Made by a program: the position numbers and the translations under genes
NCBI RefSeq assembly: GCF_030063145.1
Contig: NZ_JASISM010000001.1
Location: 558,001-622,000 of the forward strand
Source of the DNA: Cryobacterium sp. PH31-L1
GTDB lineage: Bacteria; Actinomycetota; Actinomycetes; Actinomycetales; Microbacteriaceae
Reading direction: 5' to 3'
Length of the DNA stretch: 64,000 nt
Shown: positions 1,027-41,776 of the stretch, one piece after another
Numbering within the stretch: the first letter of the stretch is position 1
Layout of the letters: each line of letters opens with the position of its first letter
The notes under the pieces: generated by a model
What the model was told of the DNA's origin: nothing
Seen by the model: only the letters and a program-made list of their open reading frames with translations
The model's database searches: none

Positions 1027-1494
1027 ATGACCGTGTTGACCGCCGATTTGTACGACGAGCGTGGCGACGAGCTGCAATCCGTACCACTGCAGTTTCAGAC
1101 GATCGGCGGGCGAGCCCAGTTCGGCGGCCCGATTCGCACGGTCACCTGCTTCGAAGACAACGCCCTGCTCAAGTCGATCCTGTCCACGCCCGGCGACGGC
1201 GCCGTGCTCGTCATCGACGGCGGCGGCTCTCTCAACTCGGCGCTGATGGGCGATATGATCGCCGACCTCGCCGTCGCGAACGGCTGGTCCGGCGCCATCA
1301 TCAACGGTGCCGTGCGTGACCGGGTCGCCATCGGCGCCCTCGACCTCGGCGTGAAAGCTCTCGGCAGCAATCCGCGCAAGAGTTCCAAGACCGGTTCCGG
1401 CACAGCGGATGCCGTGGTCGAGTTCGCCGGCGTGACCTTCACGCCCGGGCGCACCGTCTATTGCGACGAAGACGGCATTCTCGTCGAACGCTAA
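1027..1494 (+). CDS. rraA: RraA family protein
   Basis: 155 aa, the full length for the RraA family. Members are either trimeric inhibitors of RNase E or metal-dependent 4-hydroxy-4-methyl-2-oxoglutarate/oxaloacetate aldolases. Family signatures are visible: the N-terminal [45 protein letters not shown] and a C-terminal [17 protein letters not shown] 1027 follows a good ribosome site (GGAGGA, about 1018-1023). It lies 55 bp after the ABC ATPase gene and could be read from the same transcript, but no functional link is evident. Which activity applies cannot be decided here; in actinobacteria an aldolase role is at least as likely as RNase regulation. Confidence 0.85.
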
Positions 1495-1514
1495 CCCTTG
1501 CTCGAGTGTGGCTG

Positions 1515-1628
1515 TTACTGCTGAACGTCGTCGATGCGCACGACGACAAAGTTGGCGTCGAGCTCTACGTCGCGGTCGCTTCCGTTGTCGAGGGTGACCT
1601 CAACCTCGTAAACGTGGTCCGGGGGCTG
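1515..1628 (-). pseudogene. PepSY-like domain remnant (C-terminal end only)
   Basis: On the minus strand, 37 codons between an in-frame TAG (1629-1631) and TAA (1515-1517) encode a peptide containing VYEVEVTLDNGSDRDVELD followed by ANFVVVRIDD. This pattern of two alternating beta strands ending in a D-x-NF-V motif is the end of a PepSY domain. No start codon or N-terminal half is present, and the next gene on the same strand stops 26 bp before the TAG. I read it as the tail of a deleted PepSY protein. A composition accident cannot be excluded. Confidence 0.45.
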
Positions 1629-1656
1629 CTACCGCGGCGCTCGCGCGACCGATCGG

Positions 1657-2535
1657 TCAGAGGTGATTCAACGCATCCGTTGCGGCGAACTGTTCGAGCA
1701 CCGCCCGCACCTGGATCGACGCCTCGGTGCGCCCCGATCGTACGTCGGGAATGCGCAGAGCCGGCAGCTCGCTCGGCGTCGGAAAATTCGTGTAGGCGTC
1801 GCGCATGAATTGGTCGAGGCGCTCGCCCACCTTTGGATCCTCCGTCCATAACCGCGGCAGCCGAGCCGGCTCGGTGAGTGGATCGAACCCGAGCAGGGCG
1901 ACCCGGTTTGCGGATCCCGCTGCTAGGTCGGAGTCGTCCGTGGGTAGTGGGCGAGCCATTCGTGCTCCGGCGAAGACCACTCCGGCACCGAGCAGTAGCC
2001 AGGCGACGGGCAGGATAGCCTGCATGCTGATTTCGCCGCCGGTGAGCAGAACGAAGAAGTAGGCGAAGACCCAGACCACGGGCGACAGCAGCATGAGGGC
2101 GATGCCGCCTCGACGAATGGATCGTGACCGCTTCGACCGGAGCGTGGTTGTGCCGGCCTGGCTGGCGGCGAAGGCCTCCTGCTCTGCCGGCGAGATAACT
2201 TGGCTGGCATCAAATCGCCAGGCGGCCAAGATGGCTTCGTGGCGAGCTGCGATCGCCTGGCTCAACAGGGACGCCCTCGGGGCCCAATCGCAGTATCGCT
2301 GACCGTCTGGTGATTGCACCCACAACCGATAGTTGATGTGGCGTTGCTCACTGACACCTTGCCAGGTGGCATAGGACGTTGCCGAAGCAGCTGCGGTCGC
2401 CCGAGCGGTCGTTGTGAACGACGTTTGGAGCCCCTCCGGCTGTTCCGGGGAGGTGCTGGCATTGAATGCGGCGACGGCGGCCGTCGCCGCGGACTGGGTA
2501 TTTGTGACCGCGCGCGACAGATCATTGTCGATCAT
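1657..2535 (-). CDS. Hypothetical protein with two membrane segments
   Basis: 292 aa from ATG 2535, chosen because GGGGGAAG lies just upstream; an upstream in-frame extension lacks such a site. Residues 1-60 are Ala/Thr/Ser-rich. The middle holds a soluble stretch (HINYRLWVQSPDGQRYCDWA, then a helix ending in a basic KRSRSIRRGG). Two adjacent hydrophobic segments follow (GIALMLLSPVVWVFAYFFVL and ILPVAWLLLGAGVVFAG), then a C-terminal soluble domain of about 100 residues. I recognise no family. It is divergent from the NERD gene at 2801, with 265 bp between them. The reading frame and ribosome site make it a real gene. Confidence 0.7.
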   Translation of the reverse strand: MIDNDLSRAVTNTQSAATAAVAAFNASTSPEQPEGLQTSFTTTARATAAASATSYATWQGVSEQRHINYRLWVQSPDGQRYCDWAPRASLLSQAIAARHEAILAAWRFDASQVISPAEQEAFAASQAGTTTLRSKRSRSIRRGGIALMLLSPVVWVFAYFFVLLTGGEISMQAILPVAWLLLGAGVVFAGARMARPLPTDDSDLAAGSANRVALLGFDPLTEPARLPRLWTEDPKVGERLDQFMRDAYTNFPTPSELPALRIPDVRSGRTEASIQVRAVLEQFAATDALNHL

Positions 2536-2800
2536 GAACTTCCCCCGGACATTTCTACGACGAACGGCAATATGCCGGGCTGGTCGTGCCGTGGGGTTGC
2601 TGTCGAACAACCGGGCAATGTCATCGTGGCACAACTCATTCGGTAAAAGTCCAGTCGAGCCGGTGCCGCCCCCGTACTGGGGTGGACAAAGCCCGGCCAG
2701 TGCGATAAATCAGGCATTTGACCCGCGCGCAAGCTCCCGATCGGGGGCTGCTGGAGCCGGCCGTTCGACGGCTAAGTTCAAACCCCCGAAGAGGAGAACC

Positions 2801-3601
2801 GTGACCATCGACGCTCCCATAATGCGACAGCGTTGCCCTGCGCAGTCGATCATAGAAGTGCTCCTGCTGGAGCAACGCCTGGTTGCGCCCCGCAGCCCGG
2901 TGCAACGCCTGGTCGGTCGGTCGCCGCTCGGCGCGGACAGCGCGCGCTGCTTTGACGCCGCGCGCGCTGAAATCGCCGTGGGGCTGGCTCTGGCCGAGCT
3001 GCCGCGGGAATGGATCGTCTTCCACTCCCTGCCGGTGGGCGAACGCGGCACCGACGTCGATCACCTCGTGATCGGACCGGGCGGGGTATTTGCCCTGCAC
3101 TCCGACCGTCAGGCGCGCAAGTCGGTACTGGTCGCCGGGCGCAGCGTGCTGGTCGGTGCCCGCAAGATTCCCTATATCAGGGAGGCCGAATTCGAAGCGG
3201 TCAGCCTCACCACTCTGCTGTCGGAGCGGATGCCGCACGCCGCGTCGGTGCACGGAGTGGTCGTCCTCGTCGATACCAAGAGCGTGACGGTGAAGGCCCA
3301 GCCGTCCCGGGTGAAAGTGATCGAGGCCGTAGATCTGTGTGCCTGGCTGCAGGGGCTCCCTCCGGTGCTTGCCCCTCTCGACCGGTTGGAAATTGCCGGG
3401 TTCGTAGAGAATCCCGCGCTCTGGCAGGCCCTCGTGGCTCTGGAACCGGCTGAGATTCTGCTGCGCTTCGACGAGCTCGAGTCAGAAGTGGCGCGGGCGC
3501 GTCGTACTCGGCTGTTGTGGTGGCCGCTCGGAATGCTTCTCACGACACTCGGTGCCCTGGAAATGCTGCTGACGCTGCCGCAGCTCGTCAGCGCGCTCTA
3601 A
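2801..3601 (+). CDS. NERD-domain protein, paralogue 1 (active site altered)
   Basis: 266 aa from GTG 2801, placed by GAGGAG at 2791-2796. NERD (nuclease-related) domains have a PD-(D/E)xK-like fold. This copy keeps the core VDHLVIGPGGVFALH (residues 86-100), including Asp87, but where paralogues 3 and 4 have N-[ST]-K it reads HSDRQ, so the expected lysine is absent. Residues 1-25 carry the family start QSIIEVLLLEQ. A C-terminal hydrophobic segment (LLWWPLGMLLTTLGALEMLL) suggests membrane anchoring. It is the first of four paralogues in the window (also 7845, 9527, 37803). Role unknown; probably non-catalytic, which is inference. Confidence 0.8.
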   Translation: MTIDAPIMRQRCPAQSIIEVLLLEQRLVAPRSPVQRLVGRSPLGADSARCFDAARAEIAVGLALAELPREWIVFHSLPVGERGTDVDHLVIGPGGVFALHSDRQARKSVLVAGRSVLVGARKIPYIREAEFEAVSLTTLLSERMPHAASVHGVVVLVDTKSVTVKAQPSRVKVIEAVDLCAWLQGLPPVLAPLDRLEIAGFVENPALWQALVALEPAEILLRFDELESEVARARRTRLLWWPLGMLLTTLGALEMLLTLPQLVSAL

Positions 3602-27685: not shown

Positions 27686-27817
27686 ACGTTAGCGTAGCGC
27701 GGGTGCCGCTGAGAAAGCGGATGCCCGAGCGGCGAAATCCCGTCATGTGTTCGTATGCAATTTCGTACAGAATTCCCGATATTTGTGAGAATCCCTCGAC
27801 TTCACGGGGTGTCCTTG

Positions 27818-27829
27818 GTACACTTGTTC
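27818..27829 (+). promoter_or_regulatory. SOS (LexA)-like box before the DUF222/HNH gene
   Basis: GTAC-ACTT-GTTC lies immediately before the ATG at 27831. The wider 16-mer (27816-27831) matches the actinobacterial LexA consensus, TCGAAC-N4-GTTCGA, at about 9 of its 12 fixed positions. A tandem 12-bp near-repeat beginning TTCGTA (27750-27773) lies further upstream. LexA control would fit the 13E12-type family downstream. Confidence 0.45.
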
Positions 27830-27830
27830 T

Positions 27831-29645
27831 ATGAGCCAGAGCGGCGACACCCCCCAGCACCAGGGAGTGATCGATCGTTTCGTGCAGGGTCTGCCCGATT
27901 CCGAATGGTTCATTTCTGCAAAAAACCGCGTCTGGGCTGAGGCGTTCCGGGCAGAGTGCGAAGCGGCCTGCCCGGCCGAGCCCGAAGCCGAAGCCGAAGC
28001 CGAAGCGGCCGCGCAGGCACGGGCTCCGCAGCTACCTGATGGCCCGCCGATCCCGGCCGGTCTCGACCTGACAGAGGTGTTCGCGGCGGTGCCGCCCGAG
28101 CACCTGTTCGACGAGAACCTCCGCGAAGAGGCCCTGTACGCCGATTACGTCGCTCATACCCTCTATGTCGACCATGCCCGGTTCGACCCATTCGGTCAGG
28201 CCTCCGACGATTGGGCCCCCGACGATTGGGCCCCTGACGATCCGGCCCACGCGGGCCCGGCCGACGAACGCCCGGCGGGGCCGAACCCGCTCGAGGGCCT
28301 GACTCCGTTTCAGCGGCATCAGGCGCAGTTAGTCGATCGGGTGCTGTTCCTCGAGAAAGTCATAGCGTGGGCGCAGGCCAGCAAAGCCGAGGTTCTCGCC
28401 GAAGCGTGGGACTACACCACCCAGACCGCCCAGACCGGGCGCGCGCATGCCGGTCCCGGGCACGAGCACGATTGGGACGACGCCTTTGCCGCGCAGCAGG
28501 GCCTGGTCGCGGAGATGGCGTGCGCGCTGCGCATCCCGAATGGCTCCGCGTCCGGCTTGTTCCGGGAGAGCCGCCAACTGGTGGTCGAGCGTCCCGACAC
28601 CCTCACCGCGCTCCGCACCGGCGATATCTCGCTCCGGCACGCCCGCCGACTACTGGACCAGCTCGACTCCGTGCCCGAATCCGCCCGCGACCAGCTGGAA
28701 ACGGTGCTGCTGCCCCACGCCCAACGTCTCACTCCCACGCAATTCGACGGCAAGGCCCGCAAACTCAGGGAACGTTTCCACCCCGACAGCATTACCGTGC
28801 GCCGCGCCCGATGCCTGTCCGATCGCAAAGTGCTGTTCTTTCCCGACAAAGATGGCATGGCCACGCTCTGGCTGCGCGGTGCCGGCGACGACCTGCAGGG
28901 CATCTACACCCGCGTCACCGACGCCGCGATCAGCCTGCAAGGCCCCGATGAACCCCGCACCCTCAGCGAACTCCGCGCCGATGTCGCCGTCGACCTGCTC
29001 CAGCAGGGCGTCACCAGCGCCGGCCTCGGCGCCGGCCTCACCGCCAACGTCAACATCACCGTTCCGGTGCTCACCCTGATGGGCAAGAGCGAGGAACCCG
29101 GCGACCTCGAAGGTTACGGCCCAATCGACCCGGAGACCGCCCGCAAGCTGGCCGGCACCGCAACCAGCTGGCTGCGAGTTCTCACGCACCCGCACACCGG
29201 TGTCGTGCTCGACGTCAGCAGTGAACCGTTCCGGGTGCCGGCCGCGTTGAAGAAATACCTCCGGCTCCGAGATGGAACCTGCCGGTTCCCCGGCTGCAAC
29301 CGCTCCGCCGGCCACAGCGACCTCGACCACACCATCGATAAACAATTCGGTGGCCCCACCACCGCGACGAACCTGCACTTTCTCTCGCCCGCCCACCACA
29401 ATCTGAAGCACTTCAGCGACTGGAAAACCGTCGCCGACCCCGACGGTACCCTTCACTGGACCAGCCCAGCCGGCAAACACTACGCCACCGACCCCGCCAC
29501 CCGCATAAGCTTTCCGCGACCACCAACCGCGCCACCGGCCGTCGCATCGTCACAGGCAGCAGCGCCACACCAGCCGGAATTCCCGCGCGACCCGTGGAAC
29601 CCCGCCACCTGGAATATCGACGACGCAGATCCAACCCCGTTCTAA
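27831..29645 (+). CDS. DUF222/13E12-family HNH endonuclease
   Basis: 604 aa. The long DUF222 region (about 125-430) contains AWAQASKAEVLAEAWDYT, GDISLRHARRLLDQLDSVPE and a Leu/Ala-rich core. The C-terminal HNH nuclease has RDGTCRFPGCNRSAGHSDLD, DHTIDKQFGGPTTATNLHFL and the final HHNLKHFSDW. The zinc-binding Cys pair and HNH residues are intact. The N-terminal 120 residues are acidic with short repeats (EAEAEAEA and DDWAPDDWAPDD). This family is expanded and mobile in actinobacteria; its role is undefined. ATG 27831 lies directly after an SOS-like box. A decayed relative is found at 45352-45512. Confidence 0.9.
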   Translation: MSQSGDTPQHQGVIDRFVQGLPDSEWFISAKNRVWAEAFRAECEAACPAEPEAEAEAEAAAQARAPQLPDGPPIPAGLDLTEVFAAVPPEHLFDENLREEALYADYVAHTLYVDHARFDPFGQASDDWAPDDWAPDDPAHAGPADERPAGPNPLEGLTPFQRHQAQLVDRVLFLEKVIAWAQASKAEVLAEAWDYTTQTAQTGRAHAGPGHEHDWDDAFAAQQGLVAEMACALRIPNGSASGLFRESRQLVVERPDTLTALRTGDISLRHARRLLDQLDSVPESARDQLETVLLPHAQRLTPTQFDGKARKLRERFHPDSITVRRARCLSDRKVLFFPDKDGMATLWLRGAGDDLQGIYTRVTDAAISLQGPDEPRTLSELRADVAVDLLQQGVTSAGLGAGLTANVNITVPVLTLMGKSEEPGDLEGYGPIDPETARKLAGTATSWLRVLTHPHTGVVLDVSSEPFRVPAALKKYLRLRDGTCRFPGCNRSAGHSDLDHTIDKQFGGPTTATNLHFLSPAHHNLKHFSDWKTVADPDGTLHWTSPAGKHYATDPATRISFPRPPTAPPAVASSQAAAPHQPEFPRDPWNPATWNIDDADPTPF

Positions 29646-29763
29646 CCCCGCGATCCCAGACTTGTCCAGGTCCGGCGATTCTCGCGCGACGGCCATTATG
29701 TCGACGCGTCGCCCGACGTGTAACGGCCTTGCCGCAGCTTGCCGACCTGCATAAGGTGCGAGC

Positions 29764-30728
29764 ATGAAAATCGGATACAAGCTGATCGCCGAGAGCTTCG
29801 GGCCGCAGGAACTCGTTCGCCAGGCCGTGCGTGCCGAACAAGCCGGATTCGACTTCGTGGAGATGAGCGATCATTTTCATCCCTGGGTCGAAGCCCAGGG
29901 GCACTCGCCATTCGTCTGGAATGTGCTGAGCGCTATCGCCGCGAAGACCACGACGCTGGAGATCGCCACAGGTGTCACCTGCCCGAGTGTGCGGTACCAC
30001 CCGGCGATCATCGCTCAAGCGGCCGCAACGCTCGCGCTGCTTTCCGACGGTCGCTTCACGCTCGGTGTCGGGTCGGTGAACGGCTCAACGAGCACATCGT
30101 CGGTCGCGGGTTCCCCGGCATCCACGAACGGCACGCCATGTTCGACGAGGCGCTCGACATCATCCGGCTGCTCTGGCAGGGCGGCTATCAGAACTACGAC
30201 GGCCGCTACCTTAAGCTCGAAGACGCCCGCATCTTCGACCTGCCCGACACACTGCCGACCTTGGCCGTGGCCGTCAGCGGCCCGAAATCCGTCGCACTGG
30301 CCGCCGAACACGGTGATGGCCTCTTCGCCGTGGAACCGAAGGGTGAGCTGGTCGACGGTTACCGCGACGCAGGCGGTACCGGGCCGCTCTACTGCGAAGC
30401 TCCACTCGCGTGGGCACCCACCGAAGAAGCCGCCGTGACGGCAGCTCACGCAACGAATGCGTGGTCGGTCACCGGCTGGAAGGTGATGGCTGAACTGCCC
30501 AACCCGCTGAATTTCGAGGCGGCGGCCGCAACGGTTCGCGAGCAAGACATCCGCGAGCAGTTTGCCTGCGGCCCCGACGTGGAGCGGCACCTCGAGGTGA
30601 TCGGCCAGTTCACCGATGCCGGCTTTGACCACGTCGCGCTCATGAACGCCGGGCCCGACCAAGACGGCTTCTTCGACTTCTTCGAAAGCACGCTGCGGCC
30701 CCGCCTGCTCTCCGCGGGTAGCCGATGA
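29764..30728 (+). pseudogene. F420-dependent LLM-class oxidoreductase, frameshifted
   Basis: The start ATG 29764 gives MKIGYKLIAESFGPQELVRQ, through HFHPWVEAQGHSPFVWNVLS to SDGRFTLGVGS. The frame then shifts near 30075. The continuation in the next frame, beginning GERLNEHIVGRGFPGIHERH and ending near 30728, completes a normal 321-residue luciferase-like F420-dependent reductase. Restoring one G in GGGTCGGTGAAC rejoins both halves. These enzymes transfer hydride from F420H2 to substrates, or oxidise sugar phosphates. Either the gene is recently inactivated or the read has an error. The downstream HAD gene overlaps its stop (ATGA), so the operon structure is intact. Confidence 0.85.
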
Positions 30729-31387
30729 CGCGCCGACGCGCTGTGCTGTTCGACATCGACGGAACCCTGGTCGACTCGAATTACCTGCACGTTGAGGCGT
30801 GGCACCGGGCGTTCCAAACGTTGGGCGTCGACGTTGAGGCGTGGCGCATTCACCGTTCCATCGGTCAGGATTCCGGCCAAATGCTCGACTCGCTGGTCGG
30901 CGACCGTGACACGCACTGGCTGACGGAGGCGAAAAGCCTGCATGCCCAAAGCTATGCAGCCCTGGCCCCGCAATTACGAGTGTTCGCGCAGGCCCGCGAG
31001 CTGCTGAGCGCGCTCGCCGAACAGGGCTACATCGTCGTGCTCGTTACCTCCGCACCGGAGGACGAACTGCAGATTCTGCTCGACCTGCTCGACTCAGCTG
31101 ACGCCATTCACGCCACCACGAACTCCGACGACGTGGAAGTGGCCAAAACCGAGCCCGACATTGTGCGGGTAGCGCTCGATCGCGCCGGCGTGGAGCCAGC
31201 GGAGGCGGTCTTCATCGGCGACTCGGTCTGGGACATGGTGGCGGCGTCCCGCGCCGGAGTGCAGCCGTTCGCCATGCTCTGCGGCGGCATCGCCGAGCAG
31301 ATGCTGATCGAAGCGGGTGCTGCCGCCATCTTCGAAAACCCGGCCGACCTTCTGGCGCGACTGCCCGACCTCGGGCTCGGTGGCTGA
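30725..31387 (+). CDS. HAD-superfamily hydrolase (phosphoglycolate phosphatase-like)
   Basis: 220 aa. Motif I is VLFDIDGTLVDSN with the DxD nucleophile pair, motif II VVLVTSAP, motif III K in VAKTEPD, and motif IV FIGDSVWDMVAA. A helical cap lies between motifs I and II, as in PGMB/Gph-type phosphatases of small phosphorylated metabolites. ATG 30725 overlaps the LLM gene stop by 4 bp, so it is translationally coupled to it; the frameshift upstream could reduce its expression. Substrate unknown. Confidence 0.88.
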   Translation: MTRRRAVLFDIDGTLVDSNYLHVEAWHRAFQTLGVDVEAWRIHRSIGQDSGQMLDSLVGDRDTHWLTEAKSLHAQSYAALAPQLRVFAQARELLSALAEQGYIVVLVTSAPEDELQILLDLLDSADAIHATTNSDDVEVAKTEPDIVRVALDRAGVEPAEAVFIGDSVWDMVAASRAGVQPFAMLCGGIAEQMLIEAGAAAIFENPADLLARLPDLGLGG

Positions 31388-31484
31388 ACGCGGCGCCAAC
31401 TCGACCTTCGACGCGGCGTCGGCTAGCGTAGTCAGGCACCCTCGGGGCGACTGATCTCGCTCCGTGACGAACATGGAGGTCTCG

Positions 31485-31805
31485 ATGTCCACCCAGCAGG
31501 CAACCCGCACCACGAACTCGCACAGCTCCGTGGCTCTCGGTATCGGCGTGGCCGCCATTGTCGTGTTTATCGTCGGATCGATCCTGCTGGCGCTGCTGCC
31601 CGGCAATCTCGTGGTGATCGGCGTCGTGACCGTGCTTTGCTACCTCCTGCCGGTTGTCGGCATCGTCGTCGGCCACAACGCGCGCCGCCGCGAGGGCCCG
31701 CAGAAGGCCTCGAAGTTCGGTCTGATCCTGTCGTACATTGCGTTCGGTCTCGTCGTCATTCCGCTCTTGTTCGACATCGTCGTGCGGATCACCCAGCTCG
31801 CCTGA
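31485..31805 (+). CDS. Small three-helix membrane protein
   Basis: 106 aa from ATG 31485, fixed by TGGAGGT at 31474-31480. Three hydrophobic segments are seen: ALGIGVAAIVVFIVGSILLA, VVIGVVTVLCYLLPVVGIVV and FGLILSYIAFGLVVIPLLFD, with a basic loop HNARRREGPQKASK between helices 2 and 3. It looks like a DUF4190-type small membrane protein, but the assignment is weak. Its last 33 codons and following bases recur as a truncated copy at 36980-37089, so part of this locus was duplicated. Confidence 0.75.
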   Translation: MSTQQATRTTNSHSSVALGIGVAAIVVFIVGSILLALLPGNLVVIGVVTVLCYLLPVVGIVVGHNARRREGPQKASKFGLILSYIAFGLVVIPLLFDIVVRITQLA

Positions 31806-31836
31806 TCGACGTCTCAGACGAGCGGATGCTGCTGCT

Positions 31837-32640
31837 CTACGTCAGAGCGGGGATGATCGCGCCGGAGAACACCTGCCAGGCCAGTGCGGTCTTGGCCACG
31901 AGGCTCAACGTGATGTAGACGCGCTCGCCCTGCAGGTAGTCACGCCAGGCACCGACCTGGCGGTACTGCAGCCACTGGTTCGCCGCGAAGGTGTTGAAGA
32001 ACAGGAACAGCGAAATGATGATCCCGTAGACGAAGGCAGGCGGTGACACGTTGCTGTTGGAGCCCGGCGCAACGACGTAGATCAGAATCACGATCCACGG
32101 CACCGAGCCCACCATCGACCCGAAGACGAATGGCAACATTTGTCGGCTACCCGGCGTCTCGTACTTCTCCTGCAGCGCCCCGAACAGAATCATCGCGGCA
32201 TTGGCCGCGAAAATCAAAAACAGCGCCGCAATGTCGGTTATGCCGGTGATCTGGGCGATCAACCAGATCATGATCGAGGAGCTCAGGGCGTACTCGACCC
32301 ATCGGAAGTAGTTATGGTTCTGCTTCAACCCCGCCGAATAACGGGGAAAGAACCCGGGTGAAGAGATGAGGAAGTGGAACAGGGCAGACAGTGCGAGAAA
32401 CGCCACGACGCCGATGCCCACATTGACATCGAACAGGGTGACGCGTTCGGGCGGCACCGGAGCGCCCGGGGCACCGCCCAGGTAATCGGCCGTGACGGCG
32501 AAAGTGACCTGCGTGCTCAGCAGTGTCAGCACATAAGCGAAGCCGACAGCCTGCAGCAGGTGCAGGGAACCGGCAACGATGTTGTACCGGCGTAGGCGGG
32601 AGATCTGCTGGTCAGTGCTGCGAACCTTGCGTGCCATCAT
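31837..32640 (-). CDS. Heliorhodopsin
   Basis: 267 aa, seven membrane helices. Recognised from SLHLLQAVGFAYVLTLLSTQ, NYFRWVEYALSSSIMIWLIA, ANAAMILFGALQEKYE, FVFGSMVGSVPWIVILIYVV and the last helix VYITLSLVAKTALAWQVFSG. Lys250 in that helix is the retinal-binding lysine, Glu116 the counter-ion equivalent, and His27 and His89 correspond to the conserved polar histidines. Heliorhodopsins are retinal photoreceptors with inverted topology; most do not pump ions, and their cellular role is unsettled. ATG 32640 or the adjacent 32637 is used. No retinal or carotenoid synthesis genes lie in the window. Confidence 0.93.
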   Translation of the reverse strand: MMARKVRSTDQQISRLRRYNIVAGSLHLLQAVGFAYVLTLLSTQVTFAVTADYLGGAPGAPVPPERVTLFDVNVGIGVVAFLALSALFHFLISSPGFFPRYSAGLKQNHNYFRWVEYALSSSIMIWLIAQITGITDIAALFLIFAANAAMILFGALQEKYETPGSRQMLPFVFGSMVGSVPWIVILIYVVAPGSNSNVSPPAFVYGIIISLFLFFNTFAANQWLQYRQVGAWRDYLQGERVYITLSLVAKTALAWQVFSGAIIPALT

Positions 32641-32781
32641 GCGTCTCTCATGCTGTTTGAGGGGAAGAGCGGCCAACGAATTACCCGTCGACGAGCATCG
32701 TGAGGTATGAAACCGTGCTACCACGAGTTTATGCGGCCTCGGGTGGTCTTCTCGTCGTCGGAAAGCCGAATATCGCTGCAC

Positions 32782-32799
32782 GTCGACGTCGACGTCGAC
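32782..32799. repeat. (GTCGAC)3 perfect palindrome between heliorhodopsin and NrtR genes
   Basis: Three tandem GTCGAC units form an 18-bp perfect palindrome, flanked by GCTG and CAGC that extend a possible stem. It lies 23 bp after the stop of the NrtR gene and about 140 bp upstream of the heliorhodopsin start, so it could be a terminator for the former or an operator for the latter. Confidence 0.5.
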
Positions 32800-32822
32800 T
32801 CAGCGACGGGCTTCGCGGAGCC

Positions 32823-33449
32823 TCAGAGCGCAGCGTGCCGAAACAGCTTCGCGGGCTTGCCCACGAGGCCGGGCTTGTACGCATCCGTTTCGCTGAGTTG
32901 GGGCAGCACGCGCCGACGGAAAGTGTCTTTGCCAAGTGGTTCACCCGCGATCGCGGAGTGCAGGCGCAGAAGTTCGAGCAGCGTGAACTCCAGGCCGAGC
33001 AGGAGCTCGGGGTCGGGCGAGGCCTGATAGGAGTTGCGCAGGGTGTCTACCGCCATCCGAAGTATTTCCCTGTGGTCGTAGACCAGGTCGCGAGCCTCAG
33101 ACACGGGCGTCAGTTCAATCTGCGAAACGGATGCCTCAGGTACCGCCACGAGATGCGCCACCGAGATCACCCAGCCCCGGTTATCCCGTTCTGGGGCATC
33201 GAAAACATGCAGCTGGCGCGGGCGCAGGCCAATAATATGGGCCTTGTCGCGCAGGGAGCGGAGCACAGCGTCGGCGAGGGTTTCGTGCTCGTGCAGGAAG
33301 GTTCCGGGCAGACGCCAGCCCTCTTTGTTCTGTACGAGGGCCACGCAGAGAGCGCCGTCTTTCACGGTGAGCACGGCCGTATCCACGGCCACGGAGGGGC
33401 GGGGGTAATCGGTGAGAAGTTTCTTGGCGCTGTCTCGATACTCGGTCAT
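32823..33449 (-). CDS. NrtR-like regulator (Nudix domain plus winged helix)
   Basis: 208 aa from ATG 33449. Residues about 15-140 are a Nudix fold (PRPSVAVDTAVLTVKDGALC, WRLPGTFLHEHETLADAVLR). The Nudix box lacks most catalytic glutamates (RSLRDK in place of REUxEE), as in NrtR proteins that bind ADP-ribose compounds rather than hydrolyse them. The C-terminal winged helix (FTLLELLRLHSAIAGEPLGK and DTFRRRVLPQ) is the NrtR DNA-binding domain. It is divergent from the ADP-ribosylglycohydrolase operon, 90 bp away, and is the likely regulator of that operon, sensing an NAD-derived metabolite. Confidence 0.87.
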   Translation of the reverse strand: MTEYRDSAKKLLTDYPRPSVAVDTAVLTVKDGALCVALVQNKEGWRLPGTFLHEHETLADAVLRSLRDKAHIIGLRPRQLHVFDAPERDNRGWVISVAHLVAVPEASVSQIELTPVSEARDLVYDHREILRMAVDTLRNSYQASPDPELLLGLEFTLLELLRLHSAIAGEPLGKDTFRRRVLPQLSETDAYKPGLVGKPAKLFRHAAL

Positions 33450-33467
33450 AGGTTGATTGAAGCAGAG

Positions 33468-33505
33468 TTGAGCCAATTATTCAAAAGTGTGCTACGTTGG
33501 CAATA
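33468..33505. promoter_or_regulatory. Divergent control region of NrtR and ADP-ribosylglycohydrolase genes
   Basis: The AT-rich gap holds TTGA-N9-TCAA (33468-33484). GCCAA at 33472-33476 and TTGGC at 33497-33501 form a second, wider inverted repeat. An extended -10-like TGTGCTACGTT follows. NrtR sites are about 20-bp AT-rich palindromes, so one of these is probably the operator; which one is not certain. Confidence 0.4.
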
Positions 33506-36681: not shown

Positions 36682-36962
36682 TGACCGTCGGCGAACCATT
36701 TGAAGTGCGGCTGACCGGTCCCGCCGTTCTTGCCCTCGAGCGGATGCCGACCAAACTTGCCGACGCCGTCCTCCGCTTCTGCGAGGGTCCCCTCGCGGAG
36801 AACCCGCTGCGCGTCACCAAAGCGCTTGGTGCCGAACTCGCCGGTATGCGAAGTGGCTACGTTGGAATCGCCTACCGCGTTCTGGTCGAGGTCGATGAAG
36901 ACGCGCACGTCGTTTTCGTAATGCGCATCGCGCACCGCGCCGACGCGTACGGATCGCGCTGA
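36681..36962 (+). CDS. relE: RelE/ParE-family toxin (module 1)
   Basis: 93 aa from GTG 36681, overlapping the antitoxin stop. The fold pattern is FEVRLTGPAVLALERMPTKL, then PLRVTKALGAELAGMRSGYV, GIAYRVLVEVDEDAHVVFVM and RIAHRADAYG. The central R-x-G-x-YR/AYR and terminal HR-x-x-YG are typical of RelE mRNA interferases. It would cleave mRNA on the ribosome unless bound by the antitoxin. Immediately downstream lies a truncated duplicate of another gene, so the module sits at a rearrangement junction. Confidence 0.87.
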   Translation: MTVGEPFEVRLTGPAVLALERMPTKLADAVLRFCEGPLAENPLRVTKALGAELAGMRSGYVGIAYRVLVEVDEDAHVVFVMRIAHRADAYGSR

Positions 36963-36979
36963 ACGGCACGAGACCTCAC

Positions 36980-37089
36980 GGCCCGCAGGAGGCCTCGAGG
37001 TTCGGTCTGATCCTGTCGCACGTTGCCTTCGGACTCGTCGTGATTCCGCTTCTGGTCGACTTCCTCGTGCGGCTCACCCAACTCGCCTA
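36980..37089 (+). pseudogene. Truncated duplicate of the membrane gene at 31485
   Basis: From 36980 the sequence follows the 3' end of the 31485 gene (about 31694-31805) at roughly 80% nucleotide identity and in the same reading frame, encoding FGLILSHVAFGLVVIPLLVD and ending RLTQLA plus TAA. Similarity continues into the 3' flank (CGCATGCTGCTACTC versus CGGATGCTGCTGCTC). The first two thirds of the gene are gone and are replaced by the toxin gene ending at 36962. No start codon remains. Confidence 0.8.
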
Positions 37090-37143
37090 ATCAATCATCA
37101 AACAAGCGCATGCTGCTACTCGCGCGATTCCGCCGCAGCACTG

Positions 37144-37802: not shown

Positions 37803-38723
37803 ATGACAACACAGCAACCGGGCATGCGCGACCAGATCGCCGCCCAATCGGTCATCGAAGAGTTGCTCCGCCAGCAGCTGACGATGCCACCGCGCACGCG
37901 TTTCGCCCGGTTCTGGGGAATCAACCCGCTGGCCGCCGACAGCGTCGCCTGGTATCGCGGCGCCCAGGGCGAGATCGAGGTCGGCAAAATTCTCAGCCGG
38001 CTCCCGCCCGAGTGGCGAGTCTTCCACGCTCTCCCCATCGGCAAAGCCAGCGCCGACATCGACCACCTCGTAGTTGGTCCCGGCGGAATCTTCACCATCA
38101 ACACCAAGCACCACCGCGGCAAGAAGATCTGGATCGCCGAACGGTCCTTCCTGGTCAACGGCCAAAAGCAGCCGTACCTTCGAAACTCCACATTCGAGGC
38201 CACGCGCGTCACCAAAAAGCTTCACGGGCGGATGCCGCAGCTCCCGCCCGCGCAGGCCGTGATCGCGCTGGTCAACCCCGCGTCGATCACGATCAAGAAG
38301 AAGCCTGATGGCGTCAGTGTTCTGGATGCCACGGATTTGAGGCGCTGGCTCCTAAGACGGCCGGTGCAGCTCGACGAAGTCCAGCTGGTCGAGCTCGCTG
38401 CCATAATCGACGCGCCCGCATCTTGGTCTGCACCCGCGTCGCCAACGAGTTCCGACTTGATGGCGCAATTCGCTCTTATCGACGGTGAAGTCAAGACGGC
38501 GAGGGTACGACGCGTCACATGGACCCTGCTCAGCTTCGCGACGGTGGCCACGCTCGTAGTCTTCGTCGGTGTGCCGCTCTACGAAAAGTTTGCCCTGGGA
38601 TTCTCGGCGCCCTCTAGCGACCCATACTTGGCGCTAGATGTCGCGGTAGGTGTCGCCGTTCCTCGCACGCCGGTTTGGAAGAAGACCTGGACGGCACCTG
38701 AGACAGCAAAATTCACGGGATGA
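37803..38723 (+). CDS. NERD-domain protein, paralogue 4 (motifs intact)
   Basis: 306 aa. Complete NERD core: AQGEIEVGKILSRLPPEW (candidate Glu), DIDHLVVGPGGIFTINTKHH with Asp87 and Lys102, then QKQPYLRNSTFEATRVTKKL. A C-terminal membrane helix lies near residues 240-258 (WTLLSFATVATLVVFVGVPL) with a further tail that drifts in composition. It matches paralogue 3 over the whole length, including the N-terminus MTTQQPGMRD. GGGGG at about 37793-37797 serves ATG 37803. It is the last ordinary chromosomal gene before the low-GC restriction-modification island. Confidence 0.85.
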   Translation: MTTQQPGMRDQIAAQSVIEELLRQQLTMPPRTRFARFWGINPLAADSVAWYRGAQGEIEVGKILSRLPPEWRVFHALPIGKASADIDHLVVGPGGIFTINTKHHRGKKIWIAERSFLVNGQKQPYLRNSTFEATRVTKKLHGRMPQLPPAQAVIALVNPASITIKKKPDGVSVLDATDLRRWLLRRPVQLDEVQLVELAAIIDAPASWSAPASPTSSDLMAQFALIDGEVKTARVRRVTWTLLSFATVATLVVFVGVPLYEKFALGFSAPSSDPYLALDVAVGVAVPRTPVWKKTWTAPETAKFTG

Positions 38724-39209
38724 TGCACCGGTAAGCACACAGATCAAGCTATCTACACCACGGGGTGAAGCCGCTTCATGTGATGCTCGATCACCAACGC
38801 AAACTCGGGTCGACATCTCCCCCAGGCGCAAGGCTTGCTGACTCGATGGCGAGAGTCGCTTCCTTTGTCATCACACGCTGAGCACTTTTGGAAAAGCAAT
38901 CTCGGCAACGCCCAAACCCTTTGGCCCGACGACCCTTGCGGTTGCGTGGCACCTGGTGCGTTCAGGCCGTGGTTAGACAAGAGTGGAGCAGAGACTTCCC
39001 CATCGTCGACCGTGTGCCCAGCGAGGTGACCGCCCCAGAAGCAAATCCAACACCGCCCGGGCAATACGGCATAGTAGAGATTAGTGGTCACGAAGCGACT
39101 CCACCTCTGGGCGACGGGTCGATTTTATGGCGGCATCAAGTATCTTTCGTGCAATGGATGCGTAAAAAAAGTGGCGCGAGAGCGCTGTTATTGAATGTAG
39201 GGGGCAATC
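38724..39209. other. 486-bp stretch without a supported gene, left flank of the restriction island
   Basis: No reading frame here has convincing coding features. A minus-strand frame (39091-38753) contains a CWIC pair and later CSAC, faintly like a decayed HNH zinc finger, but has no ribosome site and a poor residue mix. GC content falls toward the right end. The stretch ends with AGGGGG, which serves the TTG start of the endonuclease gene. Confidence 0.5.
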
Positions 39210-40313
39210 TTGGTAGCAGGACTTTTTGGGCTCGGGAGTAGCAGTCGTGATTTTGCCCAGGCAAATTCTTGGGGAAAGAATGTTTTCACGAACAGCCTCC
39301 CAATCGCTCTTGCTCGATATATGGACAGCGAGGGTCTGGACCCTGTCTTGATCAGCGCGTACGAGACATCAGCTGGCCGGATCGCAACTCGCCAAACGCT
39401 GACTCCACTCAGCCAAATTCTAAATGTTGAACCAGACAAGGCCCGATTTCTTTTCGAAACAATTTACAGCCGACATATTCCATTCTCGAAAGATGCACCC
39501 GAGAAATCCGATGTTGTCATCGCAGCTACTGACGGCAGCCACAGGCGTGCTCTAGAAATAAAACTTACGACAGTCCCCGATAGCTCATCAGCCGAAAAAC
39601 CGCACGATCAACAATCTTGCGAAATAGTTTCGCGCCCGCTTATGATTGAACAGCTCGCCGTCACAATATGCGCCTCTTTTGGGCTGAAGCGGCGTCGTAT
39701 TCTAAATGAATTGTTAAATGAGTTCATTTCTCATCCTGCCCAAATGCCCTGGCCGGACGAGCCCAAGATGCTGGCACGACTGCCTGAAATTCTTAACGCC
39801 GTTGAACAAGTTATCCGGCGAGGACTCGAACTCCAGACTCCGATGGTTCTTCACCCGATATGGAGAACTGTGGGCAAAACGCCTGTGCTTGAGGACGATT
39901 GTTTTGATGTTTTCGTCTGGACTGACCTGGCGTGGAGCCAGCTGCTCCTTGACTCGTCTAGGACGATTCGAGACGAGATATCTCGGCCACAGCGCTCCAT
40001 TATTTGGCTAGTGAAAATGCTCTGGGACTATTCGACGCAGGGTTCATTTGATAGAGCAAATACCTTCGAGTCCATTACCTACAATAAGCAGACGGACAAG
40101 GCTGCCTCATTTGCAGGCAACAAGACCATTGTTCACCTTCGTGGACAATACCTATCCTCACCACGCATCCCCGCGTCAGCGCTATCGAATATTATTCTCG
40201 GTGACGGGGTGAAATTCCTCGCCCCAGAGCGTCGGCTTGATGCAGCGATTTTCATTCAGGTGATCCGTGACAGTGTCAAGCCATCGGCAGCGCTTGGCGG
40301 GCCAGTCGAATAG
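39210..40313 (+). CDS. Type II restriction endonuclease, HindVP family
   Basis: 367 aa from TTG 39210, supported by AGGGGG about 7 bp upstream. The start VAGLFGLGSSSRDFAQANSW followed by GKNVFTNSLPIALARYMD is the HindVP signature as I recall it. A PD-(D/E)xK-like site is seen at SDVVIAATDGSHRRALEIKL, around residues 100-118. Codon use is lower in GC than the neighbours, a sign of recent transfer. HindV recognises GRCGYC; this homologue probably does too, but that is inference. The partner methyltransferase starts 254 bp downstream on the same strand. Confidence 0.78.
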   Translation: MVAGLFGLGSSSRDFAQANSWGKNVFTNSLPIALARYMDSEGLDPVLISAYETSAGRIATRQTLTPLSQILNVEPDKARFLFETIYSRHIPFSKDAPEKSDVVIAATDGSHRRALEIKLTTVPDSSSAEKPHDQQSCEIVSRPLMIEQLAVTICASFGLKRRRILNELLNEFISHPAQMPWPDEPKMLARLPEILNAVEQVIRRGLELQTPMVLHPIWRTVGKTPVLEDDCFDVFVWTDLAWSQLLLDSSRTIRDEISRPQRSIIWLVKMLWDYSTQGSFDRANTFESITYNKQTDKAASFAGNKTIVHLRGQYLSSPRIPASALSNIILGDGVKFLAPERRLDAAIFIQVIRDSVKPSAALGGPVE

Positions 40314-40529
40314 CATGCGGAATACCTGTCCTCTAAACTGCCAACCGCGACTTCAGCGCATCCAAGGCAGTAAGAACCGGGCAATGGGATGTTTGGCACG
40401 TGTGCAAGTGGGCAAGGACGATGTTTGCGAGGTGACTCGATCTCTTCTGCACGCACGACGGGACGTGACCCGACGGGCCGGATCACGCACGCCAATACTC
40501 GAGCTCTACCGGCCCTGAGGCATGTAGAC
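40314..40529. other. Spacer between endonuclease and methyltransferase genes
   Basis: A 216-bp spacer. A plus-strand frame to 40518 has a very basic, unrecognised product and lacks a ribosome site. No controller (C) protein gene or Vsr nuclease gene is visible. The methyltransferase promoter elements follow at 40530. Confidence 0.5.
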
Positions 40530-40553
40530 TTGACGTCAAGTAGTTGACGTCAA
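40530..40553 (+). promoter_or_regulatory. Twin TTGACGTCAA palindromes before the methyltransferase gene
   Basis: Two perfect 10-bp palindromes, at 40530-40539 and 40544-40553, start 14 bp apart and end 14 bp before the ATG. Each contains TTGAC, a -35-like element, and GACGTC, which is a GRCGYC site. They could bind a regulator or make the promoter sensitive to the system's own methylation. Confidence 0.65.
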
Positions 40554-40567
40554 AGAATGTAGGAAAT

Positions 40568-41776
40568 ATGCGTGCTGTAGACCTTTTCGCCGGTTGTGGG
40601 GGGTTGTCGAGGGGATTTGCGGATGCGGGGGTGGATGTTGTCGCTGCATTCGAGAATTGGGATCCGGCGATCGCGACATATCGCCAGAACTTTGATCACC
40701 CAATTTTCAAGATGGATCTCTCAGATGTTGAAGGAGTGTCGTCCCTTCTCAAAAGTGATTTTGCTCCAGACATGATTATTGGCGGGCCCCCGTGTCAGGA
40801 CTTCTCGAGTGCCGGCAAGCGCATCGAGCAGGGCCGTGCAGACCTCACTGTGGCATTCTCTCAAATTGTTTCAAAGGTTCGACCGGCCTACTTCGTAATG
40901 GAGAACGTTGAACGAGCAAGAGGTAGCGCGGCATATCAAGACGCACGTGCGAACTTCAAAGAGGCCGGGTATGGTCTCATTGAGACAGTTCTGGATGCAA
41001 GCTTCTACGGGGCACCGCAGAAGCGCAAGCGATTCTTCTGTATTGGACGCCTTGGGGCAGAAGATTCATTTGTTAGCGTCCCGCCAGAAGCCTTGGCCTC
41101 TACGAAGCCAATGACGGTTCGCGACTACTTTGGAGAATCTTTTGGCGGTGACCATTATTATCGTCATCCTCGCAACTACAGCCGCAGAGCTGTGTTTTCG
41201 ATCGATGAGCCTGCCCCGACGATGCGGGGAGTGAATCGCCCTATCCCAGGCGGTTATCCGGGTCATTCCGGCGATAGTCATGAGTTGGATGGTTCGGTGA
41301 TGGCTATTACGACGGAGCAGAGAGCACGCATTCAGACGTTCCCGTCCAGTTTTATTTGGGAAGGACCAAAGACACATGTTGAGCAACTCATTGGCAATGC
41401 GGTTCCAGTTAAGCTTGCTGAATTTATTGGCCGATATGTGATGGACCATGCTCGATCCCAGCATGAGAATTCGTTGGATGAATTCCTTGTTTGGCTTGAA
41501 GCGCGATCAGCTGATGGTCATTCGCGGTCCTTGAACGACGTAGTGTCGCGAGTTCGCAGAGCCAATCAACTTCAGCCTTTTCCCGAATACCCAGATCTCC
41601 AATATTTAGTTGATTTAGCAGCCGGAGTTGGCTTCCAAGAATTGGTTCCGGCAGTCCGATCTCAACTTCGTCGAGCCGCAAAGTTGTATGTAGAGTTCAT
41701 GACTCCTATTCCTTCAGGTGGTGAAAGTAAGCTATCGCGTCCCGCGACCCCCGAATCTAAAAACGTGGTGGTCTAG
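40568..41776 (+). CDS. DNA (cytosine-5)-methyltransferase
   Basis: 402 aa from ATG 40568 (AGGAAAT upstream). All C5-methyltransferase landmarks are present: motif I VDLFAGCGGLSRGF, motif IV IIGGPPCQDFSSAGKR with the catalytic Cys near residue 76, motif VI YFVMENVERARG, motif VIII GAPQKRKRFFCIG and motif X LIGNAVPVKLAEFIG. A target-recognition region lies about 190-270. An extra C-terminal part of about 100 residues follows motif X. It would protect the host from the HindVP-type endonuclease. GC is lower than in the surrounding genome. The recognition sequence is inferred, not read. Confidence 0.93.
   Translation: MRAVDLFAGCGGLSRGFADAGVDVVAAFENWDPAIATYRQNFDHPIFKMDLSDVEGVSSLLKSDFAPDMIIGGPPCQDFSSAGKRIEQGRADLTVAFSQIVSKVRPAYFVMENVERARGSAAYQDARANFKEAGYGLIETVLDASFYGAPQKRKRFFCIGRLGAEDSFVSVPPEALASTKPMTVRDYFGESFGGDHYYRHPRNYSRRAVFSIDEPAPTMRGVNRPIPGGYPGHSGDSHELDGSVMAITTEQRARIQTFPSSFIWEGPKTHVEQLIGNAVPVKLAEFIGRYVMDHARSQHENSLDEFLVWLEARSADGHSRSLNDVVSRVRRANQLQPFPEYPDLQYLVDLAAGVGFQELVPAVRSQLRRAAKLYVEFMTPIPSGGESKLSRPATPESKNVVV

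Follow-up and report, generated by a model that had tools for sequence, protein, structure and literature searches.

Several described systems are close to the one analyzed here. Structures of the heliorhodopsin (HeR) 48C12 have been solved (PDB 6su3/6su4, 6uh3). Among published HeRs, the partner that is bound and regulated is glutamine synthetase, a photolyase or an ABC transporter (PMC9529153, PMC9769723, PMC11109279). Opsin-bearing genomes that do not encode the retinal-forming dioxygenase Blh are already known in the family Microbacteriaceae, in Aurantimicrobium and in Rhodoluna/Aquiluna. Aurantimicrobium minutum KNC has a rhodopsin, crtYe/Yf and crtEb, has neither blh nor diox1, and contains endogenous retinal (PMC7734400). 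Rhodoluna lacicola, which has crtYe/Yf and crtEb, needed retinal to be supplied, as PMC7734400 cites from Keffer 2015. Among the Rhodoluna/Aquiluna genomes that encode HeR or actinorhodopsin, most are without blh, and exogenous retinal has been proposed for these Luna-1 organisms (PMC12422013). The cold-adapted Cryobacterium sp. PH31-L1 adds another member to this group; the new parts of our analysis are the comparison of the crtY-blh cassette and a survey of the genus. A literature text search found no description of a Cryobacterium HeR.

The window, which is the whole 64,000-nt stretch of PH31-L1 DNA that was analyzed, contains the following gene and putative functional codons.

31837..32640, minus strand: heliorhodopsin gene heR, 267 aa (ORF, profile matches, alignment to solved HeRs, dN/dS)
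31891..31893, minus strand: codon of Lys250, the predicted retinal Schiff-base lysine (48C12 Lys241; alignment to 6su3)
32293..32295, minus strand: codon of Glu116, the predicted counter-ion (48C12 Glu107; alignment to 6su3)

An earlier note, made from the letters of this DNA, had called the ORF a heliorhodopsin of a family that occurs in actinobacteria and has an unsettled function, and both statements were supported. The protein scored far above the two curated cut-offs, with 322.9 bits against Pfam PF18761 (cut-off 26.7; E=1.5e-96) and 339 bits against the NCBIfam HeR equivalog NF038020 (cut-off 100), and the matches spanned about residues 16-262. The solved heliorhodopsin 6su3 was a sequence match with E=3.8e-87, and identity to 48C12 HeR was 58.7% over 254 positions. 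The four residues singled out in the earlier note were named correctly, as His27, His89, Glu116 and Lys250 aligned with His23, His80, Glu107 and Lys241 of 48C12. Across 131 aligned HeRs from the fetched loci both histidines were invariant, Lys250 was kept in 130 (the sole exception being a frameshifted copy, L152) and Glu116 in 129 (the exceptions being the same frameshifted copy and L182, which has Asp). Retinal binding by the PH31-L1 protein is predicted. With the loops set by eye, 13 Lys/Arg residues fell on the N-terminus and the even-numbered loops as compared to 1 in the four outer segments. By the positive-inside rule this count favours the inverted, N-in topology expected of HeRs, which the PH31-L1 protein would probably share with 48C12. 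It differs from 48C12 in being a few residues longer between helix A and helix B and in its host and locus. The nearest HeRs to this copy were from Cryobacterium and Arthrobacter. Judged from its sequence, the gene is a full-length canonical actinobacterial heliorhodopsin and an ordinary member of the known family.

The earlier note had seen no retinal synthesis gene near heR, had concluded that the cell must either take retinal up or make it with genes beyond the window, and had proposed a search of the rest of the genome for a lycopene cyclase and a Blh/Brp-type dioxygenase. No retinal gene lay near heR, and we widened the search to the whole PH31-L1 genome (label G000; 3.66 Mb, 99.99% complete). 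No Blh/Brp dioxygenase was found in the whole genome with Pfam PF15461; the same search, repeated over the family and the genus as a positive control, gave matches in 41 of 400 and 17 of 57 genomes. A genus-tuned profile of 14 congener Blh proteins found nothing in the PH31-L1 genome at E<=1, which ruled out a Blh overlooked by Pfam, and the same 14-row profile recovered G438 (2e-167), G401 (1.6e-99) and a broken copy in G424 (2.7e-63). RPE65-type (Diox1) oxygenase was absent from the whole PH31-L1 genome, while two control genomes were positive. PH31-L1 is an opsin-bearing genome without the known retinal-cleavage enzymes (Blh/Brp and RPE65-type). The part of the earlier claim that placed synthesis outside the window therefore failed for these enzymes, and the part that invoked uptake stood, alongside an enzyme of a kind yet to be discovered.

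The order crtE-crtB-crtI-crtYe-crtYf-crtEb is the arrangement used for C50 carotenoids, and contig C29 of PH31-L1 carries the carotenoid cluster idi-crtE-crtB-crtI-crtYe-crtYf-crtEb. The sole lycopene-cyclase match, in a genome search that left out the FAD-type CrtY family PF05834, was of the CrtYe/Yf type and lay inside this C50 cluster. CrtYe/Yf was described by Nakajima et al. as a C50 carotenoid epsilon cyclase (PMC7734400).

PH31-L1 also encodes one type-1 rhodopsin with a DTE motif (RYVDWLLTVPLLLLE) and the helix 7 lysine, which we read as an ordinary proton-pump type. It was considered as a CryoRhodopsin and this was ruled out, as the position of the diagnostic arginine holds Ala and the motif is DTE in a bacteriorhodopsin alignment made by eye. 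Where congeners carry blh, it overlaps or directly adjoins crtY, which encodes a FAD-type lycopene cyclase (PF05834, E about 1e-46 to 1e-50). G407 and G413 have the genes as ABC-F, blh, crtY, rhodopsin, LON, and G422 has ABC-F, blh, crtY, LON, with the rhodopsin located elsewhere. At the orthologous PH31-L1 locus, ABC-F is followed after 193 nt by the rhodopsin and LON; the crtY-blh cassette is missing, and FAD-type CrtY is absent at this locus. Within the ABC-F/rhodopsin gap, similarity to the congeners is confined to the roughly 90 nt that precede the rhodopsin, the remainder is unrelated, and no blh remnant was seen there. The cassette appears to have been lost from PH31-L1 or never to have been present. 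Loss is likely, since in the rhodopsin tree the PH31-L1 copy is sister to a six-genome clade with Blh in five of the six; the copy is not nested within this cassette-bearing clade, which would also fit a cassette that was never present.

Other congeners showed further states of the cassette. Both blh and crtY are broken in G424 (L243, G424:C81) while its HeR and rhodopsin are intact, and by these gene remains G424 is an apparent case of recent loss of retinal synthesis. Blh is present with no opsin match in the genus tables in G427 (L166) and G430 (L245). The contig of G430 ends just past the start of a rhodopsin adjoining the crtY-blh cassette, so the opsin absence in this genome is an assembly artefact.

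We then compared opsins with Blh across genomes. Among the 57 genomes of the genus, canonical HeR was present in 31, Blh in 17 and both in 13 (one Blh broken), and the association was weak (p=0.04, relatedness ignored). Canonical HeR was thus found without Blh in 18 of the 31 genomes, three of which (G411, G423 and G441) have no type-1 opsin either. In the family, Blh occurred in 7 of 53 genomes with canonical but no divergent HeR and in 34 of 347 others (p=0.46, relatedness ignored), and in 19 of 28 genomes with divergent HeR and 22 of 372 others (p=7e-15, relatedness ignored). The dN/dS of the PH31-L1 HeR against its nearest relatives was 0.089-0.142, that of HeR between the Blh-less genomes G403, G411 and G412 was 0.02-0.04, and that of the PH31-L1 type-1 rhodopsin against its closest relatives was 0.05-0.07. 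HeR and the type-1 rhodopsin are both under purifying selection, and hence both opsins are kept, often in genomes that have no Blh gene. These data show that selection maintains canonical actinobacterial HeR even where Blh is missing, and that in the family it is the divergent HeRs that co-occur with Blh.

In L153 (G401, 1354-3214) and L152 (G406), a divergent HeR is convergent with and directly adjoins blh; these two have 44-46% identity to the PH31-L1 HeR, and the G406 copy is frameshifted. Another, in L182 (G415:C36), has 39% identity and Asp for the Glu counter-ion, and adjoins a type-1 rhodopsin gene. A single clade of Cryobacterium HeRs was rejected (p-AU 5e-45), as was a single clade of Micrococcaceae HeRs (p-AU 7e-6). 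Since neither group is monophyletic, heR has moved between lineages. Plasmid-borne spread of heR was ruled out, as just two distant HeRs were on plasmids.

On balance, the HeR chromophore in PH31-L1 is most likely scavenged, a reading to which we give somewhat better than even weight because the crtY-blh cassette of several congeners was lost or never present here. HeR would be a seven-helix membrane protein with its N-terminus in the cytoplasm and all-trans retinal bound at Lys250. Absorption of green light would start a slow photocycle, and its outcome would be signalling to a partner protein in place of ion pumping. This Cryobacterium would scavenge retinal from its surroundings, and a single scavenged pool would serve both HeR and the type-1 proton pump. 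We infer the binding of retinal in the cell, its external source and the sensory output; the role as a retinal-binding light sensor is assigned by family membership. PH31-L1 resembles the Luna-1 Rhodoluna/Aquiluna in having HeR and a proton pump with no retinal-forming gene (PMC12422013). The Luna-1 genomes are from freshwater or saltwater and streamlined, whereas PH31-L1 is a Cryobacterium of 3.66 Mb whose orthologous rhodopsin locus has no cassette. Against scavenging, no retinal importer was identified, and A. minutum, another member of the family that shares this gene constellation, has endogenous retinal (PMC7734400).

Because A. minutum contains retinal with the same gene set, an endogenous route is a real alternative, and we regard it as possible, though clearly the less probable of the two. 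Retinal would then be made in the cell by an undiscovered enzyme, for example through asymmetric cleavage of a cyclic C50 carotenoid, as proposed for A. minutum. The constellation in PH31-L1 (a member of the Microbacteriaceae with an opsin, crtYe/Yf and crtEb, and no blh or diox1) matches that of A. minutum KNC, where retinal was measured (PMC7734400), and both opsins are under purifying selection despite the absent Blh. The two systems differ in that the functional opsin of A. minutum is a xanthorhodopsin-like pump whereas HeR is the focus here, and in that the genus Cryobacterium also has species with the crtY-blh cassette. The need of Rhodoluna lacicola for added retinal (cited in PMC7734400) speaks against such an enzyme. 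Moreover, blh is kept in 17 of the 57 genus genomes, in several with crtY adjoining, and a general endogenous route would leave it without a purpose. The PH31-L1 genome yielded no candidate enzyme.

Further readings turn on the DNA around heR, in which we noted the following features.

32641..32822, minus strand: 182-nt region upstream of heR, without the promoter/leader block of relatives
32823..33476, minus strand: NrtR-like regulator (NUDIX and NrtR winged helix; NrtR_WHD E=3.1e-10), upstream of heR on the same strand
31464..31805, plus strand: small membrane protein gene, convergent with heR, with a weak DUF4190 match below the cut-off
31695..31807, plus strand: direct repeat copy 1 (113 nt, 87% identity with copy 2), formed by the 3' end of the membrane protein gene above
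36980..37092, plus strand: direct repeat copy 2, a displaced 3'-end fragment, 113 nt
27712..32822, no strand: variable segment with heR, lying between lysE and nrtR (comparison with congener G315)

Most heR genes of Cryobacterium and Arthrobacter are preceded by a conserved promoter/leader block, CCTGCTAGTnTCnGCCTCA followed by GAAGGAGT. Most relatives have in common this promoter-like block and a ribosome-binding site directly before heR, and the DNA farther out differs. The block is absent before the PH31-L1 heR, where the best site scored -4.1 bits as compared to 15-33 bits for the training sites, below the median of random 250-nt stretches. Expression of heR is therefore not assured. This absence, together with the missing known retinal pathway and the broken heR copies in some relatives (an in-frame TAA in G425, split copies in G401 and G406), would fit a HeR that acts without retinal, either as an apoprotein or bound to a different ligand, or that stays unexpressed. 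We consider this unlikely, as Lys250 is present in every intact aligned HeR, strong purifying selection acts on HeR between Blh-less genomes, and the second retinal protein, its lysine included, is also kept.

The neighbours of heR were as the earlier note had claimed, an NrtR-like protein and a small membrane protein, and the end of the latter is indeed duplicated elsewhere, with its last 42 codons recurring at 36962-37087. The two 113-nt repeat copies are 5285 nt apart, and between them lie heR, nrtR, genes for an ADP-ribosylglycohydrolase, TY-Chap2 and an HD protein, and a Phd/YefM-ParE toxin-antitoxin pair. The direct repeat pair resembles a scar left by an island or by a duplication. Elsewhere in the window, the stretch 38500-41500 is low in GC (52-53% vs ~65%) and contains a HindVP-type restriction endonuclease at 39210-40313; it is probably an acquired restriction-modification system.

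Across 80 relatives, the genes that flank heR in PH31-L1 were not conserved next to HeR, and the sole exceptions were distant homologues (NERD in 2, LysE in 2). NrtR orthologues or remnants, with 66-81% identity, were found in more than ten congeners, and in the DNA examined heR adjoins nrtR in none of them; the NrtR neighbour is therefore incidental. The nrtR-ADP-ribosylglycohydrolase-TY-Chap2-HD module is present, whole or in part, in many HeR-less congener loci. In the HeR-less congener G315, the lysE-nrtR interval is ~2.3 kb and has a GmrSD-type gene in place of heR. A functional link of HeR to NrtR or the ADP-ribosylglycohydrolase was rejected on the basis of these orthologous nrtR loci without heR. 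The NrtR-like regulator is broken or truncated, by an in-frame TAG or as partial copies, in L191, L194, L195 and L201-L204, which indicates that the gene is decaying in the genus.

The PH31-L1 protein belongs to the same family as the HeR operon groups (glutamine synthetase, photolyase, ABC transporter, NAD+ synthetase and others), for which a regulatory role was proposed (PMC11109279, PMC9529153), but none of those partners adjoins its gene, which falls in the larger stand-alone group. Membership in a co-transcribed group would call for a conserved same-strand neighbour within a few nt; here the nearest gene on the same strand is nrtR, 182 nt upstream, and this adjacency was conserved neither in 80 HeR loci nor at the nrtR orthologues and remnants of congeners. 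The PH31-L1 heR is an orphan gene with no conserved operon partner. That heR is cotranscribed with nrtR in an NrtR/ADP-ribose-controlled operon and signals in NAD metabolism is very improbable, since the same strand, the 182-nt gap in which no intrinsic terminator was found, the missing usual promoter and the presence of NAD+ synthetase among ten known heR operon partners (PMC11109279) are set against the lack of adjoining heR at the congener nrtR loci, a DNA similarity to those loci that ends at the nrtR stop codon, and the occurrence of nrtR near heR in 0 of 80 HeR relatives.

The case bears on how opsins are charged in Blh-less bacteria, where one relative needs added retinal and another has retinal by an unknown route. 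There is perhaps a one-in-three prospect at best that Blh-less Cryobacterium species obtain retinal from an undiscovered enzyme acting on C50 carotenoids, which would be findable by comparative genomics of Blh-plus and Blh-minus species. Cryobacterium is culturable and, among the genomes surveyed, includes 13 species with canonical HeR and Blh (one broken) and 18 with canonical HeR and no Blh, HeR being the sole opsin in 3 of the 18. Retinal supply is therefore testable by pigment assay on available strains, and the value of the case lies in having Blh-plus and Blh-minus species within one genus for such a test.
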